From: a virus
DNA length: 21,546 bases
Strand: one strand, 5' to 3'
IMG/VR virus record: IMGVR_UViG_3300037189_027864
Span: 1-21,546 of that record
Below the pieces are notes generated by a model. The model had not been told where the DNA came from and did no database searches. It worked only from the letters and a program-made list of their open reading frames with translations. Within the stretch, counting starts at the first letter, position 1. The number at the start of each line of letters is the position of its first letter. Below, piece by piece: positions 4,984 to 20,879 of the stretch. A program made the translations under genes and the position numbers.

Positions 4984-5513
4984 TAGGGTATCAATAAGGT
5001 TTGTAATCTGGCCATAATTGAAGCATAACCTGGTGCGTTGATTGGAGGAGAGGTAGGAAACCCAAGGTTGCCGGTATGCGTTTCGGTCGTAAGTTGGGTA
5101 AGTAAATCGTTGATGATTGCATACAGCGTCTCTCCTCCTTTTTTAATCCGAAACCCACCAACTTCATTGACTACAAACTCGCTCGCTCCAACCTTGATAC
5201 TGAACTCATGGGCTGCACTGTCGTACTTCACAAGCGATCCATCCTTGTACTTAACCACGGAAACAGAAGGACCTGAATCTTCAGGTTTGTCTTGACTATT
5301 AAACCTCGCTCCAATAACCTCCCCGTCAGTACACGTTTCATCCATCAAACAAACAACCTGTTCGCCGGATTGATACGGGAAGAACTCTTTGGTGCCCTTG
5401 GTGCCTCTTGTTATTATTGAAAGCCAACCAGACGTAATATCGTCCTCTTTAAAGAAAACCTTCACGTATCCCTTTTCGGCATCAATTTCGGTTATGTAGC
5501 CAATCTTCCTCAT
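4983..5513 (-). CDS. V: Baseplate spike protein gpV-like (gp45 family)
   Basis: This 176-aa protein is the central spike of the baseplate, which pierces the outer membrane. The N-terminal OB-fold region (about 1-75) has 'KGYVKVFFKEDDITSGWLSIITRGTKGTKEFFPYQSGEQVVCLMDE', the typical gpV/gp45 beginning ('V.V.....SGWLP......G....P...GEQV'). A 'DGSLVKYD' to 'GGFRIKKGGETL' section (about 92-130) would form the beta-prism. The C-terminus has 'ETHTGNLGFPTSPP'. P2 gpV is longer (211 aa) and has an apex HxH iron-binding motif; only a single His is visible here. It overlaps hub D upstream and the 79-aa gene downstream by one base each. Confidence 0.88.
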   Translation of the reverse strand: MRKIGYITEIDAEKGYVKVFFKEDDITSGWLSIITRGTKGTKEFFPYQSGEQVVCLMDETCTDGEVIGARFNSQDKPEDSGPSVSVVKYKDGSLVKYDSAAHEFSIKVGASEFVVNEVGGFRIKKGGETLYAIINDLLTQLTTETHTGNLGFPTSPPINAPGYASIMARLQTLLIP

Positions 5514-7411
5514 TAGTATTCAACAACAGTTTCCGGCGTAGTAAGCACCTTTTTAATGCTTATTGATGTTGTGTACCCACCACCTTTGGAAAGATTGTGT
5601 GTACTTGAATCTATATTGTACTGACCGTCAAAGTTACCAAAATCGCTTAGAATAATGTTTTGCCCTGCCGTCAATGAATAACACCCAGCCATTGTTATTG
5701 TGCCTGAGCACCCGTCCGCGTTTGCATTGTATAAATTTGATGATGCAACTTGCTCGCCTTGCTCTTGAGACTCTACCCTTTCAAAGACCTTTTTAGTGTC
5801 CTTTGAGTAGTATTTTCTAAAAAATTCTGGAATCGTTGGTACCTTAGACGACTCAGGGTAAAGTTTTTTATCAGTTGCGTAAGGATCCTCAAATCCTTTT
5901 TCCGTATATGAAGATTCGACGACAAATTTGCTGTTGTCGTTTAAGTAATCAATCATATTTTTTCGCCCAATATCTGTCCCAAGATTTGCAGCTAAAGTAT
6001 AAAACGCGCCACTTTTTGTAACGTTATCATCCTTTAAGACTTGTTTAAACTTTTGAATTTTTTCTTCATTAAATTCAGGATACAAGCTTTGCAACAACTG
6101 CCCTTCAAAAGACTCTCTTTTTACTGACCAAAAAGGATTTTTGCCTACCGCAAAAAGTAAATTGTCTGGATAAAATTGTGCCGTGTTTTTGTTTGGGTCG
6201 TCATATATGGCTTGCGCTTTTCCGTAAGTACCGTATGTCTTATCGGTTATGCTCCATGATGAAATATCGGACTTTTTTATTGACATTATCGGTGGTTCAC
6301 TATGTATGCCCCATGTGCTTAAAAATATCATTTTCCCTCCTCTTAGGCTTGCATAGTATCCATAATTTTCTGCAATCTTTTTTAAAAAGGCAAGGTCAGT
6401 TTGCCTGTATTGGGTAACCCTATCAAAAACAGGATTTTGTTTAAACTCGCCTTCCAACTCAAATCCATTTGCAAAACATATATTTCCAACAATATCACTT
6501 AGCTTTTGGTTTTCAAACGCTCTTGAGTTTATTGTTCTTGCAGCATTTTTTATTCCAGCGGCTATGGCTTTTATTGTAATTGTGTCTCCAGGCCCTGAAA
6601 ATGTTATTTCGTCAATTTCAAAAACACCAAGGTAAAGTTCCTCAATATAAACAGAAATCACATCCCCAAATGTAGGGTACCATTTTGATTGCCATAGCTG
6701 ATCTACGTCATCAACAATAACTGTAACCTCATCGCTTTCACCATGGACTTTATCTGTGTATGTAAGGGTAGAAACATACTGAGTAATTTCAGCGGTTCCA
6801 TAAAGAACTTTGAATGAACCCATGGGCATATCCGAAGATGTTATTTCTCGCCTGTTTTTATATGGGTCATTTTTTTCGGATGGCGTTATTTTATTGCCTG
6901 CCGGTTCTTTTTTTTCTACCGGTTTTTCATTTTCATTAGCCGTATTTTGTTTTTGAGCAATACTATCGGCAACAGAGATAACTGTTCTTGCATAGCTTCC
7001 TGACTCAGCATATCCAGCATTGGCTATTGCAAAAATCTGGTCTCTGTAATTTTTTGCTGAAAAAACACCAGCGTTTTGATAACGACCGTTTTCGCGTAAG
7101 AACTTAATGTAATTAGCTGCGCTTTCTTCAAAACTATTATACTTTCTGAATTTTGAAATTTTTTGGGCATCATTTGGAGTAGGCAATGATACAGTTGGGC
7201 CAGTCCAAGAAGGGTCAGTTTTTATTCCAAAGTAATTATTTGCAGATTTTGCAAGAGATGATTGCCCTGGTGAGTATTCACCTCCAACTGGTCCTTGGCT
7301 TTCAACAATAGCTTGGGCCAATAATGTTTCAGGAAAAATACCCGTGCCCAATGAAATAGACTTTGCAGCAGGATAATTTATAGCAACCCAATTTTTCCTT
7401 GAAACAGCCAT
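5513..7411 (-). CDS. D: Tail hub gpD fused to N-terminal GH73 glucosaminidase
   Basis: This 632-aa protein combines two activities. Residues 1-150 are a glucosaminidase domain (GH73/FlgJ-like), likely to cut peptidoglycan during DNA injection: 'LLAQAIVESQG' carries the putative catalytic Glu37, followed by 'ANNYFGIK' (57-64), 'FRKYNSFEESAANYIKFL' (88-105) and 'NAGYAE...Y' near 131-140. A Lys/Glu/Pro-rich linker (about 155-200) joins it to a gpD-type hub ('late control D') domain with an 'F.V..G...IT..V..L..TD' start, 'YRQTDLAFLKKIAENYGYYASLRGGKMIF' in the middle and a C-terminal OB-like part. ATG at 7411 is preferred over an in-frame ATG 45 bases upstream (7456), because the upstream choice would overlap the 71-aa gene and adds an unrelated leader. 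It overlaps V by one base. Confidence 0.87.
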   Translation of the reverse strand: MAVSRKNWVAINYPAAKSISLGTGIFPETLLAQAIVESQGPVGGEYSPGQSSLAKSANNYFGIKTDPSWTGPTVSLPTPNDAQKISKFRKYNSFEESAANYIKFLRENGRYQNAGVFSAKNYRDQIFAIANAGYAESGSYARTVISVADSIAQKQNTANENEKPVEKKEPAGNKITPSEKNDPYKNRREITSSDMPMGSFKVLYGTAEITQYVSTLTYTDKVHGESDEVTVIVDDVDQLWQSKWYPTFGDVISVYIEELYLGVFEIDEITFSGPGDTITIKAIAAGIKNAARTINSRAFENQKLSDIVGNICFANGFELEGEFKQNPVFDRVTQYRQTDLAFLKKIAENYGYYASLRGGKMIFLSTWGIHSEPPIMSIKKSDISSWSITDKTYGTYGKAQAIYDDPNKNTAQFYPDNLLFAVGKNPFWSVKRESFEGQLLQSLYPEFNEEKIQKFKQVLKDDNVTKSGAFYTLAANLGTDIGRKNMIDYLNDNSKFVVESSYTEKGFEDPYATDKKLYPESSKVPTIPEFFRKYYSKDTKKVFERVESQEQGEQVASSNLYNANADGCSGTITMAGCYSLTAGQNIILSDFGNFDGQYNIDSSTHNLSKGGGYTTSISIKKVLTTPETVVEY

Positions 7412-7421
7412 TCCCTTAAAA

Positions 7422-7637
7422 TTAAGATTGGTTGAGTGGACGAATAACCAAATCAATCATTGCAACAGAAATTTCATATCCATACTTAACGCATAGAGAT
7501 TTATATTCCTCCATAAATGATTCCTGCTTGGATTTTTCAATTTTTTCTAAAAAATCACGTGCTTCTTGCTCTGTAATTTTTTTTTCAGAACAGGATTCTT
7601 TTTTTAATGACCATTTTCTATTTGGGGCTGGAGGCAT
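7422..7637 (-). CDS. Small charged protein of unknown function
   Basis: This 71-aa protein is not recognised. Residues 8-45 are strongly charged and predicted helical ('KKESCSEKKITEQEARDFLEKIEKSKQESFMEEYKSL'), possibly a coiled coil. The last part is 'YGYEISVAMIDLVIRPLNQ'. It fills the gap between the 243-aa gene and hub D without overlapping either (10 and 19 bases). Codon use and AT content fit its neighbours. It has no signal peptide or membrane segment. The reading-frame position and tight packing argue that it is real. Confidence 0.65.
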   Translation of the reverse strand: MPPAPNRKWSLKKESCSEKKITEQEARDFLEKIEKSKQESFMEEYKSLCVKYGYEISVAMIDLVIRPLNQS

Positions 7638-12013: not shown

Positions 12014-12024
12014 GGCTTAATTAG

Positions 12025-12096
12025 TAGCGGGGACAAGAATCGAACTTGCGACCTCAAGGGAATGAACCTTGCGAGCTACCACTGCTCTACCCCGCA
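12025..12096 (-). tRNA. tRNA-Met-like (CAU anticodon)
   Basis: A 72-base cloverleaf folds cleanly. Acceptor stem: six pairs (G2-C71 to G7-C66) with U1-U72 mismatched. D arm: GAGC/GCTC with loop AGTGGTA including G18-G19. Anticodon stem: CAAGG/CCTTG with loop TTCATTC, so the anticodon is CAU. Variable region: AGGTC. T arm: GCAAG/CTTGT with loop TTCGATT. The discriminator is A; no CCA is encoded. Anticodon-stem bases 29-31 are A-G-G rather than the three G-C pairs of initiators, so elongator Met (or Ile2 if the wobble C is lysidine-modified) is likely. Base 37 is U, unusual for such tRNAs, which normally carry modified A. It begins 6 bases after the tail tube stop and has no promoter of its own. 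Confidence 0.85.
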
Positions 12097-15134: not shown

Positions 15135-15590
15135 TTATACGGTTGCTAACAGACCTACGGCGCGAAGCTTTGCAAGCAATGCGTTAAAATCTGCAACAAT
15201 ACCAGCAGTATTGTTCGCTGTACTGTCAGCTTGAACTGCCATCAAGTGGCCAAGTTCGTCAATGGTAACTTCTATGGTGGTACCATTATCGCCAACGGTT
15301 TGGGTAGCATAGCCAAGAAACTTGTTGCCAGAAAGGGTTTTGGTAACAACTGAATTTGTAGAGTCCCATGCAACAGCAGCACCTTGGGTGATGCCTTTAC
15401 CGGATCCAACTTCCTTTGCAAAGGAAAATACACCATCGGTTTTTACTGCGCCAGAAGTTCCGTTGGCAATGTTACCCAAGGCAACACCAACCAAGCGGCC
15501 AACAAACACAGGGGAACCCGAAGTAATAGTTGCTCCAGTTGAATTAGTCAACTGAAGAACTTCGCCTGAAATAATGAAATTTTGTGCCAT
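15135..15590 (-). CDS. Capsid cement protein, DUF2190-like
   Basis: This 151-aa protein follows the major capsid gene, the usual place for a decoration protein. 'SGEVLQLTNSTGATITSGSPVFVGRLVGVALGNIANGTSGAVKTDGVFSFAKEVGSGKGITQGAAVAWD' (about 7-75) is the DUF2190 pattern of a Gly/Thr-rich beta fold. A short helical end 'NNTAGIVADFNALLAKLRAVGLLA' follows. The ATG is directly preceded by seven A, a strong translation signal in Bacteroidota. Between it and the capsid gene lies a GC hairpin. Confidence 0.82.
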   Translation of the reverse strand: MAQNFIISGEVLQLTNSTGATITSGSPVFVGRLVGVALGNIANGTSGAVKTDGVFSFAKEVGSGKGITQGAAVAWDSTNSVVTKTLSGNKFLGYATQTVGDNGTTIEVTIDELGHLMAVQADSTANNTAGIVADFNALLAKLRAVGLLATV

Positions 15591-15643: not shown

Positions 15644-17725
15644 TTACGCGCCTGGATTGTAAACAACACCACGGTATCCGATTGCACCTACACCATAGTC
15701 CAAGCGAATCTTCCACTGCATTCCGTCAACCTCATAGCCCATTTGGCTTTCCATGTATGGAGTTTGAACTCCATCAAGGAACGCAACCTCAAGCACGGGC
15801 TCAACGTTCGGGTCAGCAAACATGTAGTATGCTGTTCCTGAAAGACGAGGAGTATCCACAACGTTGTTCAGTAAACCATTTACCAAATTCGGACGCTGAA
15901 GTTTGTTTGAAGCATCAGGATCGTACTGGCTTCCGTTCACAATACGGGCAGCTCCTGCAATCGACATTGGGAACAATCCAATCGAAGGACGGATGTTCAA
16001 ATAGTCATTGTTGTCCTTGTCTTTTTGTTGAGCCATCAAAATACGCATGGCTTCAAATGAAGCCACCGTAGGGGCTACACCAGTACCAATCTTATTTCCG
16101 TGGTCAGTGTGGATCAAAGCTTTGCCATCAACCATATTTGGACCCATGCCGCTGTTCAAAGCAAGCAAAGCAAACAAATCGTTCTCAATTGAACGGGCAG
16201 CAGCTTGTCCAAGCATAGCAGCCAAACGAGCAAACGCATTCAAATCATCGTTCACAATCATCTGACGTGAAACGTTGATAAGGTTACCCTTGGTACCAAC
16301 GCTGATCTTCTCAAAGTCAGCATCGGTAATTTTCTTGGTCTTGAACTCTCCGTTTTCACCTACTGACTCAAGGTCAGAGAAACTTCCCATGCGAAGCCGC
16401 TTGTACTCGCGGAAATCTCCAACGGAACCGGTAACAGCAATTTGCCTCCATATAAGAGCAAGATTCTCATAATTGGCCAAAAGAATCCGGCGATTAGTTC
16501 CTTCAAGAATAACAGAAAAGTCGCTTCCAGAACTGGTAATTGCACGACCGGCAATCTCCATTTTGTCCATGCCTTCGTAATTTACACCAGCACGTTTCAA
16601 GCAATCCTTGGCGAAATCTAACAAAGTCATACCACGGAACTTATTCGCTTCTTTGCGAACATCCTCGTTGTAGTGCTTGGCAACATCGCCCACCTGAGCA
16701 GAACGCATAACCAAAGCAGCTTCACCAGCGGTTCTGCGAATTTCAACCTCGCGGTCGCGGCCCACCGATACATTACCATGAACTTTAGGCTGTCCAGCAA
16801 ATGACTGGTCAATAACTGCACCACGAACAACGTCAATGCTTGAGTTTTCGTTAACGTGCTTATTGACAAAATCCTCTCCAAGGCCAGCTTTAGAGGCTAA
16901 AGAACGAATTTCGGTAATTCTCTCACGCTCGGTGCGAGCAGCTTCTGCACGGGCATTCTCTGCCGATACAGGGTCAGGAGATGGAGCATGAGTGGGCGCA
17001 GGAGGAACGGGCAATTGAGCCGAACTCTCCAACAATTCAGTCAACTGCTCATCAGTAGCGTTATTTTCAAACGCAATGCTGCGCTGCTTCAATAACGCAA
17101 TGATCGTTTCACGTTTCATTGGTTTGGGTTTGTTTGGGTTTAGGATTTTATCAATTGATACTGGGTAATCTTCTGCATTTTCACTTCTGGCTGATGCTGA
17201 TGGATCAGCTGGAACGGCTACAAACGAAACTTCCATAGGTTCCCAATCTTCCGCACGGTATGTAGCGTATTGTTGTCCTTCTGTGCGAGGAATCTCCATG
17301 TACCTGTGAACCTTGTATCCAACAGATACATTTTTCTTGATGCCGTCTCGTATATCGTTAATCAACGGAAGCACTTCGTCATTGGAAGAAAAACGAACAA
17401 TGCCTCGAGCTTGATTTCCAATAAACTTCACTTCAGTCATAATGCCAATCTGGTCATCAATACTCGCATAGTGATCTTTTAGAATGGGAAGGCCGCTGTC
17501 AATTCGCTCTTTGCGAATATGTTGCGGATCCATACTCAAAATTTCATAAAATGGCTCATCTGAAACACGCCAGTTCCGAGTCAAAACGGCATTATCGGTG
17601 GCAAAAACAACTTCTACCGTTCGTTTATTTTCATCAAAGGTAGAAACGTCAAACTGGGCGCGAACGCGCAAATCAGATACATTTCGGCTTTGATTGCGGT
17701 ATGATAGCCCGTTGTTTAAATCCAT
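15644..17725 (-). CDS. Prohead protease / major capsid fusion protein
   Basis: This protein (693 aa from ATG 17725) carries protease, scaffold and capsid in one chain. Residues about 10-180 are an HK97-type (S78) prohead protease: 'GLPILKDHYASIDDQIG' (His85 catalytic), 'NVSVGY' (Ser134 catalytic), then 'WEPMEVSFVAVPADPSA' (159-177). Residues about 200-330 are a scaffold-like region with a Pro-rich segment and a charged helix ('AENARAEAARTERERITEIR'). The rest is a capsid fold ('NSGMGPNMVDGKALIHTDHGN', 'VEPVLEVAFLDG'). An in-frame TTG at 17764 would add 13 residues, but ATG 17725 begins at the normal family start. Confidence 0.92.
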   Translation of the reverse strand: MDLNNGLSYRNQSRNVSDLRVRAQFDVSTFDENKRTVEVVFATDNAVLTRNWRVSDEPFYEILSMDPQHIRKERIDSGLPILKDHYASIDDQIGIMTEVKFIGNQARGIVRFSSNDEVLPLINDIRDGIKKNVSVGYKVHRYMEIPRTEGQQYATYRAEDWEPMEVSFVAVPADPSASARSENAEDYPVSIDKILNPNKPKPMKRETIIALLKQRSIAFENNATDEQLTELLESSAQLPVPPAPTHAPSPDPVSAENARAEAARTERERITEIRSLASKAGLGEDFVNKHVNENSSIDVVRGAVIDQSFAGQPKVHGNVSVGRDREVEIRRTAGEAALVMRSAQVGDVAKHYNEDVRKEANKFRGMTLLDFAKDCLKRAGVNYEGMDKMEIAGRAITSSGSDFSVILEGTNRRILLANYENLALIWRQIAVTGSVGDFREYKRLRMGSFSDLESVGENGEFKTKKITDADFEKISVGTKGNLINVSRQMIVNDDLNAFARLAAMLGQAAARSIENDLFALLALNSGMGPNMVDGKALIHTDHGNKIGTGVAPTVASFEAMRILMAQQKDKDNNDYLNIRPSIGLFPMSIAGAARIVNGSQYDPDASNKLQRPNLVNGLLNNVVDTPRLSGTAYYMFADPNVEPVLEVAFLDGVQTPYMESQMGYEVDGMQWKIRLDYGVGAIGYRGVVYNPGA

Positions 17726-17730
17726 TGGAT

Positions 17731-17765
17731 GCAAATGTAAAAAAAGTTTTTTATTCAAATGCAAA
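17731..17765 (-). promoter_or_regulatory. Candidate Bacteroidota-type promoter before the capsid gene
   Basis: In the 45-base AT-rich gap, the minus strand reads TTTGCATTTG (plus 17756-17765) followed by TACATTTGC (plus 17731-17739). This is the TAnnTTTG -7 box, with TTTG at a spacing of 22 or 16 bases, the first within the 17-23 range quoted for Bacteroidota. The transcription start would lie at or next to the capsid ATG (17725), giving an almost leaderless message. It could allow extra capsid transcription inside the operon. AT-rich sequence makes chance matches easy. Confidence 0.4.
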
Positions 17766-17770
17766 TTTTT

Positions 17771-18037
17771 TTATTTACCAGGCAATAAATTTAACAAATA
17801 GAACAGTTTTGACTTGATTACTAATTGCTCATGTTCATCATAAACCGGTTTGTATTTCTGTTCACTACCTGGAAAGTTTAAAGAAGAATCAACAACCTCT
17901 GAGCACAACATGTCGTTAAACATTTTTATGAAGTCCTGCATTTCGCTAAAGGATATAGCCCTTTTCCTCGGGGTAGCCTTTGGCTTTAGTGGTACTTTCT
18001 TAGTGTTTGGCATTGATTGTAAAGATAAGCAAAACAT
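17771..18037 (-). CDS. Small protein of unknown function before the capsid gene
   Basis: This protein (88 aa from ATG 18037) is not recognised. The start forms a TGATG overlap with the metallophosphoesterase stop. Another ATG (18013), giving 80 aa, starts at 'MPNTKKVPLKPKATPRKRAISF', a strongly basic, Pro-rich segment that looks more like a natural N-terminus. The remainder is helical ('FSEMQDFIKMFNDMLCSEV', 'EHEQLVIKSKLFYLLNLLPG'). The position before the capsid protease could mean a scaffold or DNA-binding helper, but there is no family evidence. Confidence 0.6.
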   Translation of the reverse strand: MFCLSLQSMPNTKKVPLKPKATPRKRAISFSEMQDFIKMFNDMLCSEVVDSSLNFPGSEQKYKPVYDEHEQLVIKSKLFYLLNLLPGK

Positions 18038-19221
18038 CAAAACAAGATATTCAACTTTGTGGTATAGCCATGTTTTTTATCAATCATTTTGAATCCTTGT
18101 TGAGGCCGCTCAAACGATGCCCCGATGCGCTGGGCGTATGCCGAATAACCAATTCCTGAGCCATTCACCATGCAGTCCTTGGTGGCTTCAAACAACTGAT
18201 GATAGTGGCCCATAAAATTAAAGTCTGCTTTTATAGTGGTGTTGTACCTGCCAATGGCTTTGATGAGTGGAACCGTCAATCCTCCGATGCCACCACCATA
18301 GCTAATTGTATCCCCATGCCAAAAGCGGTTCACAAACCCGAACACATTCACGTAAGCAAAAAGCCCATCCGGCACAACGAACTCAAACCGTTTGTTGGTC
18401 TGGTAATAATCCTGAAGGTCTTTGTACATCATCCATTCGTAGCTGTTCTTATGCCCAGTGGACACCCTCGGCTTCTTGTTCGTTCGCCCATGGTTGCCAT
18501 AATTACACACCACGACGATGCGCTCAAAATTACCATGCTGTGCGTAAAAATCTAACGCGCTTATGATGCGCTTCTTTGCGAAGCGTACTGCTTGTACAGG
18601 ACTGAGATAATTGCTCTCTTCCAATTCTTCATGGATGTATCCCGTGATGAAGTCGCCACCAAGCCATATAATTGCCTGTTTTACCTCGCTGCTGTGCCGT
18701 TCCTTATGCACAAGCTTCATGCTATTTTGGATGCACCTAACCCATCTGTGTTCGGCTATCTCAAGGTTATACTCGTTTAACCCATTGATGGTTCGCGGGT
18801 CTATATTTTCCTCGAAATGCCAGTCGGATAACATAATCACCGGACATGCCTCGCTCTTGCCTTGGCTGAATAATGGCTCAATACAATGCACATCCACTCG
18901 CTCTCTGATAACAATCATTGCATCAAATCGCTTTTCGGCCTCCTCAAGTTTTACAAGAACGTGCTTGTATTTCTCGTTCAGTTGCCTTATTTTAGCCGAT
19001 TCGCGTATAGCAGATACATCGCCCGCAACGCGCTCCTCTACCGTTAGTTCGCGCTTCTCTTTTTTGTCGGTATGCTTTTCTTGCGGATTTTTAATCTTCC
19101 AATAAGCAACCTTCAAGCTTTTATACTCAGGGTCTTTTGTACTTATGCCCAATGCTGCGGCTACCTGTTTTGTAGTCTTTCCTTCATAGTCAACAGATAA
19201 AACCTTTTCCCTCCAAGTCAT
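18037..19221 (-). CDS. Calcineurin-like metallophosphoesterase with N-terminal HTH
   Basis: This 394-aa protein has all the metal-binding motifs of calcineurin-like phosphoesterases in order: 'LSDWHFEE' (Asp133, His135), 'WLGGDF' (Asp190), 'GNHGR' (Asn243, His244), 'WHGD' (His302) and 'MGHYH' (His339, His341). Residues 16-45 ('TTKQVAAALGISTKDPEYKSLKVAYWKI') look like a helix-turn-helix, followed by a charged coiled-coil (about 75-115). The substrate is unknown; nuclease or phosphodiesterase action on DNA or nucleotides is a family possibility. It sits between portal and capsid protease, three bases behind the portal stop, which is unusual for a non-virion enzyme. It may be carried for processing or protection at packaging. 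Confidence 0.85.
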   Translation of the reverse strand: MTWREKVLSVDYEGKTTKQVAAALGISTKDPEYKSLKVAYWKIKNPQEKHTDKKEKRELTVEERVAGDVSAIRESAKIRQLNEKYKHVLVKLEEAEKRFDAMIVIRERVDVHCIEPLFSQGKSEACPVIMLSDWHFEENIDPRTINGLNEYNLEIAEHRWVRCIQNSMKLVHKERHSSEVKQAIIWLGGDFITGYIHEELEESNYLSPVQAVRFAKKRIISALDFYAQHGNFERIVVVCNYGNHGRTNKKPRVSTGHKNSYEWMMYKDLQDYYQTNKRFEFVVPDGLFAYVNVFGFVNRFWHGDTISYGGGIGGLTVPLIKAIGRYNTTIKADFNFMGHYHQLFEATKDCMVNGSGIGYSAYAQRIGASFERPQQGFKMIDKKHGYTTKLNILF

Positions 19222-19224
19222 TTT

Positions 19225-20664
19225 CTATGGATTTGGTTGCATATCGGTTCGGTTCAACCTATTAGGGTCAAATGCGGGATCAGACTCAGGAACTACATTT
19301 GCAGAAATAAACAACTCGTGGTCTGTTTTTAGCTCACGAATAACATCTTGAGGGTCCCTGCCTAATTTTCGTACTTGATTCTGCCAACTGTCCATTCCTG
19401 ACCTAATCAATTGCTTCATGCCCTCAGTTTCCTTTACAGGATCAATCATCTCACGTCTTGGTGGTGTCCATGTAACAACTGATGCAGAACGGTATCCAAT
19501 CAATTCCATTGCATCGCTAAACCATTGATAAACAGGTTGGCAAAACTGAGCAATCATAATGTTCTCTTGCCAACTCACAATGTTCCGGTGCATCTCGAGC
19601 CAGCCCATACGGCCAGAACTAAACGATGTGTTTGCAAGGTCGCTGGTTAAGCTTTCGTATGTAATCCCATATCCAATGGCAATGCTTTGCAATGTTGATT
19701 TTACATATTCGGCATATCCTTGAGTAGCCGGTGGGGCCGCAAATGATATACTTTGGCCTGGATTCAATGTCGTAACGCTTCCAGGTTCTATTCTATCAGG
19801 TACAGAACCCTTGCTATTTGAAATTCCGTTTGTATCCGTAACAAAAGCTGCAAAACACGCTGCAATCTTACGCCTCATCAACTCAGCGTCCTGATACTCA
19901 TCCAAATCACGTACACGAAGAAATGCGCTCACGCCAAATGGAATACCACGAACTTGACCAGGGCGGTCTACCCGATAAACATGGCAAACATCCTCGGCCC
20001 GAACTCGAGAAGATTGAGGGTAAAGCGTTAATAACGGATCGCCAGGATGACGGTCAAAAATCCAATATGCAATTCGCTTACCGGTTTTATCAAACTCAAC
20101 ACCTTGCATAATCATGGTGCCGTCAGCCAACGTATCTTGAAACCTATTTACATCAAGGTAATCGGCCTCCAAAACCTGCAACTTGATAGAAATCTTATTC
20201 CGGTCCCTTGTACGACGACGAATAATTATGCACTCACCATCTTGGGCTACTGCTTTCATAATTTGCTCTTGCAAACCATAAAAATTCAACTGCCCATTGT
20301 AGTCGCAATCAGTGCTCTCGGCCCATGTTTTCCATTGATCGTTTATGCGACGACTCTGCAATTCGGATGTTCCAGTATGGGAAGGACGTATTCCAGGGCC
20401 AATGGTATTGGTAGCAATTACATGAACAGCACGTTGAGCGTAGGTATTGTTCCGAACTAATTCCCGAGACTTATTCCGAAGTTGAGTCAACGCATAAACG
20501 CTTTCAGCATTTGCAGAACCCGCATTTGATCCTTGCATGCCACCACGACGACCGTTCTGCGCTGCCTCATATCCACGAAGCATGTTGAAAGCCACCTTGG
20601 CTCGTTCGCGATTGAGAGCCCAAACAGGCGATATGGTCTGAATTACATTCTCAATTAGGCTCAT
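19225..20664 (-). CDS. Portal protein, lambda family
   Basis: This 479-aa protein forms the portal ring through which DNA is packaged. It is the lambda gpB-type family: N-terminal 'VRNNTYAQRAVHVIATNTIGPGI' (about 70-92), 'DCDYNGQLNFYGLQEQIMKAVAQDGECIIIRRR', 'LQVLEADYLD', 'VEFDKTGKRIAYWIFDRHPGD', 'IPFGVSAFLRVRDLDEYQDAELMRRKIAACFAAF' and 'TYESLTSDLANTSFSSGRMGWLEMHR', all in the family order. It overlaps the gpW-like gene by four bases (ATGA). Confidence 0.94.
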   Translation of the reverse strand: MSLIENVIQTISPVWALNRERAKVAFNMLRGYEAAQNGRRGGMQGSNAGSANAESVYALTQLRNKSRELVRNNTYAQRAVHVIATNTIGPGIRPSHTGTSELQSRRINDQWKTWAESTDCDYNGQLNFYGLQEQIMKAVAQDGECIIIRRRTRDRNKISIKLQVLEADYLDVNRFQDTLADGTMIMQGVEFDKTGKRIAYWIFDRHPGDPLLTLYPQSSRVRAEDVCHVYRVDRPGQVRGIPFGVSAFLRVRDLDEYQDAELMRRKIAACFAAFVTDTNGISNSKGSVPDRIEPGSVTTLNPGQSISFAAPPATQGYAEYVKSTLQSIAIGYGITYESLTSDLANTSFSSGRMGWLEMHRNIVSWQENIMIAQFCQPVYQWFSDAMELIGYRSASVVTWTPPRREMIDPVKETEGMKQLIRSGMDSWQNQVRKLGRDPQDVIRELKTDHELFISANVVPESDPAFDPNRLNRTDMQPNP

Positions 20665-20879
20665 TGGCTATCAAGAGGATATGCCCCCTTATTAAATGTT
20701 GGTGTGTTGATGTGAAGTTTTCCAGATACAATGCCAAGTTCTTGCTCCATTGCACCTTTAATCAATAACATTTCAGCAAGACTTCTGTATTCTACGGTCT
20801 TATCCCCATACTTAACAACTCTTGCACCTTGGGCAATAGATTGTTTAAGCGCATCGTAGTCAGTTTGAGTCCAAGCCAT
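20661..20879 (-). CDS. gpW-like head-tail joining protein
   Basis: This 72-aa protein lies before the portal, as lambda W lies before B. The pattern 'TQTDYDALKQSIAQGARVVKYGDKTVEYRSLAEMLLIKGAMEQ' (helix, beta hairpin with 'V.Y.D..VEYRS..EM', helix) is that of the gpW family, which stabilises filled heads and offers the site for tail attachment. The last 20 residues are disordered-looking. The ATG follows TAACAATA, the same context as the sheath and tube genes. Confidence 0.75.
   Translation of the reverse strand: MAWTQTDYDALKQSIAQGARVVKYGDKTVEYRSLAEMLLIKGAMEQELGIVSGKLHINTPTFNKGAYPLDSQ

Follow-up and report, generated by a model that had tools for sequence, protein, structure and literature searches.

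The window, the whole 21.5-kb virus record analysed here (21,546 nucleotides), encodes head and tail proteins of a phage with a contractile tail, including a tail sheath (phrog_23). On the minus strand the head-tail adaptor Ad1 is followed by the portal protein, a metallophosphoesterase (MPE), the small gene orf89, a protease/capsid fusion, a cement protein and further head or neck genes, and then by a tail part with sheath, tube, tape measure and baseplate genes (Table 1). Used as a query against the viral collection, the portal found no relatives. The likely start of the protease/capsid fusion is an ATG near 17725; just before the start of this gene, at 17732-17765 (-), lies a Bacteroidota-type promoter-like sequence, TTTG-N22-TACATTTG, a pattern that the window contains in numbers not clearly exceeding chance expectation. 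Inside the tail operon, a tRNA-Met(CAT) gene (12024-12096, -) separates the tube gene from the small tail gene that comes next. In the gene at 5513-7456 (-), an N-terminal endolysin-like domain (residues ~33-207) is fused to a phrog_52 tail protein, and from this domain composition the product is likely a tail-borne cell-wall enzyme.

Table 1. Features around the metallophosphoesterase gene (window positions)
Feature	Position	Strand	Evidence or remark
MPE, PHROG_284-type metallophosphoesterase, 394 aa	18037..19221	(-)	uninterrupted ORF, PHROGs, alignment, model
Predicted parts of MPE			HTH-like helices (residues 3-44), coiled coil (61-106), DP1/Mre11-like catalytic domain (121-394)
orf89, small partner gene	17771..18040	(-)	between MPE and capsid
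Portal protein, lambda family	19225..20664	(-)	Phage_portal_2, E=7e-99
Prohead protease / major capsid fusion	15644..17764	(-)	phrog_4523, E=3e-174; NF045541 above curated cut-off
Head-tail adaptor Ad1 (gpW-like)	20661..20879	(-)	family match
Head decoration / cement protein	15135..15590	(-)	family match

The initial annotation described an intact calcineurin-like enzyme, and the reading frame indeed runs without interruption, contains all five motifs (D133xH135, GD190, GN243H244, H302 and GH339xH341) and encodes metal and catalytic residues that are invariant in a 35-sequence alignment. The product matches the widespread phage family PHROG_284 (“exonuclease”) with E=3.3e-37 over profile positions 35-385 of 398. 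No MPE family of Pfam or NCBIfam scored above cut-off and a PDB sequence search gave no match, so it is through PHROGs and fold comparison that the protein is placed. Its AlphaFold model (mean pLDDT 88.9) consists of three N-terminal helices (3-8, 17-23 and 31-44), a long 46-residue helix and the phosphoesterase domain, in agreement with the helix-turn-helix (HTH) and coiled coil first proposed for the N-terminus; HTH matches in Pfam are sub-threshold (GerE, E=0.012). As both the five motifs and the two-metal phosphoesterase fold are present, the protein is, judged by motif content and predicted fold, a member of the calcineurin-like metallophosphoesterase superfamily, and by its profile match a member of PHROG_284.

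Among solved structures, the model was nearest to DP1 of archaeal polymerase D (PolD; Z 17.6, 231 aa, 3.2 Å, 12% identity), followed by Mre11 (Z 16.5), with the cyclic-nucleotide enzyme Rv0805 at Z 13.1 and LpxH also at about 13. Phosphatases for proteins, lipids and cyclic nucleotides belong to the calcineurin-like superfamily as well, carry the same motifs and reach Z-scores of 13-15, not far under those of DP1 and Mre11; the shared fold does not prove the substrate. In DP1 the metal ligands are D360, H362, D404, N450, H497, H560 and H562, and H451 is essential (PMC10721889), with a catalytic role (PMC4996933). All eight residues have invariant counterparts in the MPE: the ligands correspond, in order, to D133, H135, D190, N243, H302, H339 and H341, which would hold two metal ions, and H451 corresponds to H244, which would protonate the leaving 3'-OH. 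The N-terminal OB-fold domain of DP1 is absent from the MPE model, in which residues 1-120 are helical or coil without strands, and no polymerase D partner is known for the MPE here.

Mre11/SbcD shares both fold and two-metal site with the MPE but works with SbcC/Rad50, and no such gene was detected in 5 related phage records with PF13558 or in 15 with PF13476, the positive controls being detected and the window itself being a 21.5-kb fragment. As these 15 records lack SbcC/Rad50, the family members appear to act alone; membership in an SbcCD complex, looked for through SbcC, found no support in these related phage records. The N-terminal part varies among MPE relatives, being HTH-like in the window clade, Cys4 zinc-ribbon-like in cyanophages, or a coiled coil only, while the catalytic core is kept. 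Swapping of modules around a constant core is what would be expected of a DNA-targeted enzyme, and the varying N-termini may represent exchangeable DNA-targeting heads.

The initial annotation passed over orf89, which is part of the same insert as the MPE. Listed as 89 aa, it has homologues whose starts align with the ATG at 18013, likely the true start, which gives a protein of 80 aa (MPNTKK...) with a basic N-terminus and a predicted alpha-beta-beta-alpha core. A search of the phage database returned no family match, the fold comparison no confident match, and a profile comparison with the MPE no similarity. Within the viral collection, relatives of orf89 were seen only adjoining MPEs of the window clade; this exclusive linkage, together with its faster divergence, suggests that orf89 modulates the MPE or serves as its adaptor. 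The orf89 of L007 (L007:4211-4459) is 57% identical to that of the window, while L002-L006 have a 37% version (L003:9208-9441) next to MPEs close to that of L007, so that orf89 seems to have been swapped independently of the MPE.

The nearest relatives of the window head module, namely Stenotrophomonas phage S1, Bordetella phage PBb001 and L094 (whose capsid fusion is 46% identical), have no MPE at this site, and their portal is followed directly by protease/capsid. The gene order that had been given as the rule for such head clusters thus holds in these genomes, the description of the MPE as inserted is borne out, and MPE plus orf89 can be recognized as an insert of about 1.5 kb. The pair occurs again in L002-L007 and L121, where it comes behind genes for a portal of Mu type and a minor head protein and upstream of a set of neck, protease and capsid genes that differs from the one in the window. 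Among 17 contigs fetched as more distant relatives of this second head operon, the region was visible in 16, and in all of these (16/16) it lacks an MPE, the genes after the minor head gene being ferritin-like, small or neck genes. The ferritin-like/rubrerythrin gene between minor head and neck genes (L003:9871-10380, Pfam Ferritin E=5.5e-8) is also found in L002, L006, L101-L108 and L121 and is kept at 36-47% identity or more. The insertion points in the two head operons are analogous, not identical.

Head-located MPEs and the MPE of a further record, L009, form one clade (support 91/88), and a single MPE-orf89 pair therefore appears to have been passed from one unrelated phage to another. 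In L009, a 94%-identical MPE precedes an orf89-like gene (~30% identity) and then, in place of capsid genes, antisense genes that are methyltransferase- and PAPS-reductase-like, as named from sequence alone; DNA homology between the window and L009 ends at the MPE stop codon. A search for flanking repeats, as a mark of transposon-like insertion, gave weak two-copy matches only. On this synteny and phylogeny, MPE and orf89 are best described as a horizontally moving two-gene cassette. Like phage morons, the cassette is an optional foreign element between conserved structural genes, absent at the same site from close relatives (L094, S1 and PBb001, and the 16 relatives of the second operon). It may differ from morons in its regulation, a pattern scan that covered sigma-70 type promoter sites having given promoter and terminator hits at about the chance number, and it is tightly packed, the MPE starting after a 3-base gap from the portal stop codon. 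The MPE gene is kept for its protein under strong purifying selection: the window and L009 copies are 94% identical in protein and 81% in DNA, with a dN of 0.047 and saturated dS, and in the second head group dN/dS is ~0.03-0.07.

Stand-alone phage MPEs are common, with more than 540 relatives among the matches listed in one scan. An HNH endonuclease is the next gene in 15/84 family loci, a set consisting mostly of best-scoring scan matches, near-copies included, in which counts are not population frequencies; NinG, exonuclease VIII, SSB, an annealing protein and DNA polymerase A are also found nearby. Distant members are located in recombination, replication or lysis regions, many of them in lysis regions rather than in DNA-metabolism clusters. 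In cyanophages L010, L011, L025 and L041 the order MPE, HNH endonuclease, phage-encoded sigma factor is fixed. PHROG_284 relatives such as Synechococcus phage S-CBS1 gp28, cyanophage KBS-S-2A CPKG_00013 and Bacteroides phage BU2-2 gp41 share with the window MPE the stand-alone state, the catalytic domain and all motifs at 31-36% overall identity. They differ from it in being part of recombination/replication clusters that contain exonuclease VIII, SSB, HNH or PolA, in lacking orf89 and, in the cyanophage members, in having a Cys4 instead of an HTH N-terminus. The literature searched contained no biochemistry of the PHROG_284-type MPE family, and no title or abstract in it described a portal-MPE-capsid arrangement.

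The most likely activity of the MPE is that of a stand-alone DNA nuclease, and we consider this assignment probable. The frequent DNA-processing neighbours within the family count in its favour, as does the DNA-degrading mycobacteriophage MPE gp48, a different protein described below, while the many relatives in lysis regions count against it, as does the repeated landing of the close clade after portal or minor-head genes, which under this reading would be coincidence. With the initial view of an intact, DNA-active enzyme, fold, residues and selection agree, the DNA activity itself being what we infer. A dedicated role in packaging or in trimming DNA ends, as proposed with it, is not supported: phages can do without the cassette, which is mobile, and the family resides mostly in recombination, replication or lysis regions. 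Synteny of a mobile insert at random loci had been named as the observation that would speak against such a role, and synteny largely shows such an insert, except that in two head operons unrelated to each other the close clade is found behind a portal or minor-head gene. It is on this recurrence that a late packaging-linked nuclease could be argued, one that, perhaps held by orf89 at the portal vertex, trims ends or branches so that terminase fills the head: MPE and orf89 follow the portal in the window, or portal and minor head protein in L002-L007, precede protease and capsid in both unrelated operons, and their pairs belong to the one clade. However, both head modules have relatives that function without the MPE, the sites of insertion are only analogous, most of the family lies elsewhere, and the nearly identical L009 copy is found away from capsid genes, so that we regard this explanation as unlikely. 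Since the cassette moves between phages, its position between portal and capsid is no proof of a packaging role. A stricter version of the packaging explanation, in which the MPE would join with orf89 in a dedicated late complex at the portal or procapsid that processes DNA in packaging and was for this reason adopted by unrelated head operons, appears more doubtful still; if true, the cassette would be an exchangeable packaging accessory with a role comparable to that of the HNH proteins aiding some terminases.

A counter-defence or host-takeover enzyme, degrading host DNA or destroying a nucleotide immune signal, would be compatible with an accessory mobile cassette under strong purifying selection, and has a precedent in the MPE gp48 of mycobacteriophage A10ZJ24, a phosphodiesterase and DNA nuclease for which host DNA degradation has been proposed and which degrades DNA in vitro, is inactivated by motif mutations and is expressed early (PMC12287305). 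Both are phage MPEs with five motifs, but they are different proteins likened by description and not by sequence; moreover, the window MPE belongs to a late operon and its fold is closest to DNA exonucleases. This explanation deserves some weight, even if it is not a likely one. A protein phosphatase resembling lambda NinI, with proteins of the host or the virion as substrates, would come from the same superfamily, and NinG, near which NinI is found in lambda, adjoins the MPE in L019-L021. Nevertheless, the protein is placed with exonucleases by its fold and by PHROGs, and the N-terminal modules are of DNA-binding type, which makes a phosphatase of this sort highly improbable.

Under the preferred reading, that of a stand-alone nuclease, the MPE-orf89 cassette would have been acquired horizontally and would be co-transcribed with the late head genes, late expression then following from the landing site in the head operon and not being taken as a sign of packaging function. 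The enzyme would act as a two-metal DNA nuclease in the manner of Mre11 or DP1, brought to DNA as an oligomer by its HTH and coiled coil. Most likely it would process ends or branches of phage DNA, in recombination or in the clean-up of replicating DNA, or degrade host DNA.

While the enzyme family was already known, the cassette clade with its exclusive partner orf89, recurring in unrelated head operons, is new. That two unrelated head operons share this enzyme and its partner, and that both have cassette-free relatives, provides a clean comparison, and the effect of the cassette on packaging, recombination or host takeover is thereby testable by gene removal.
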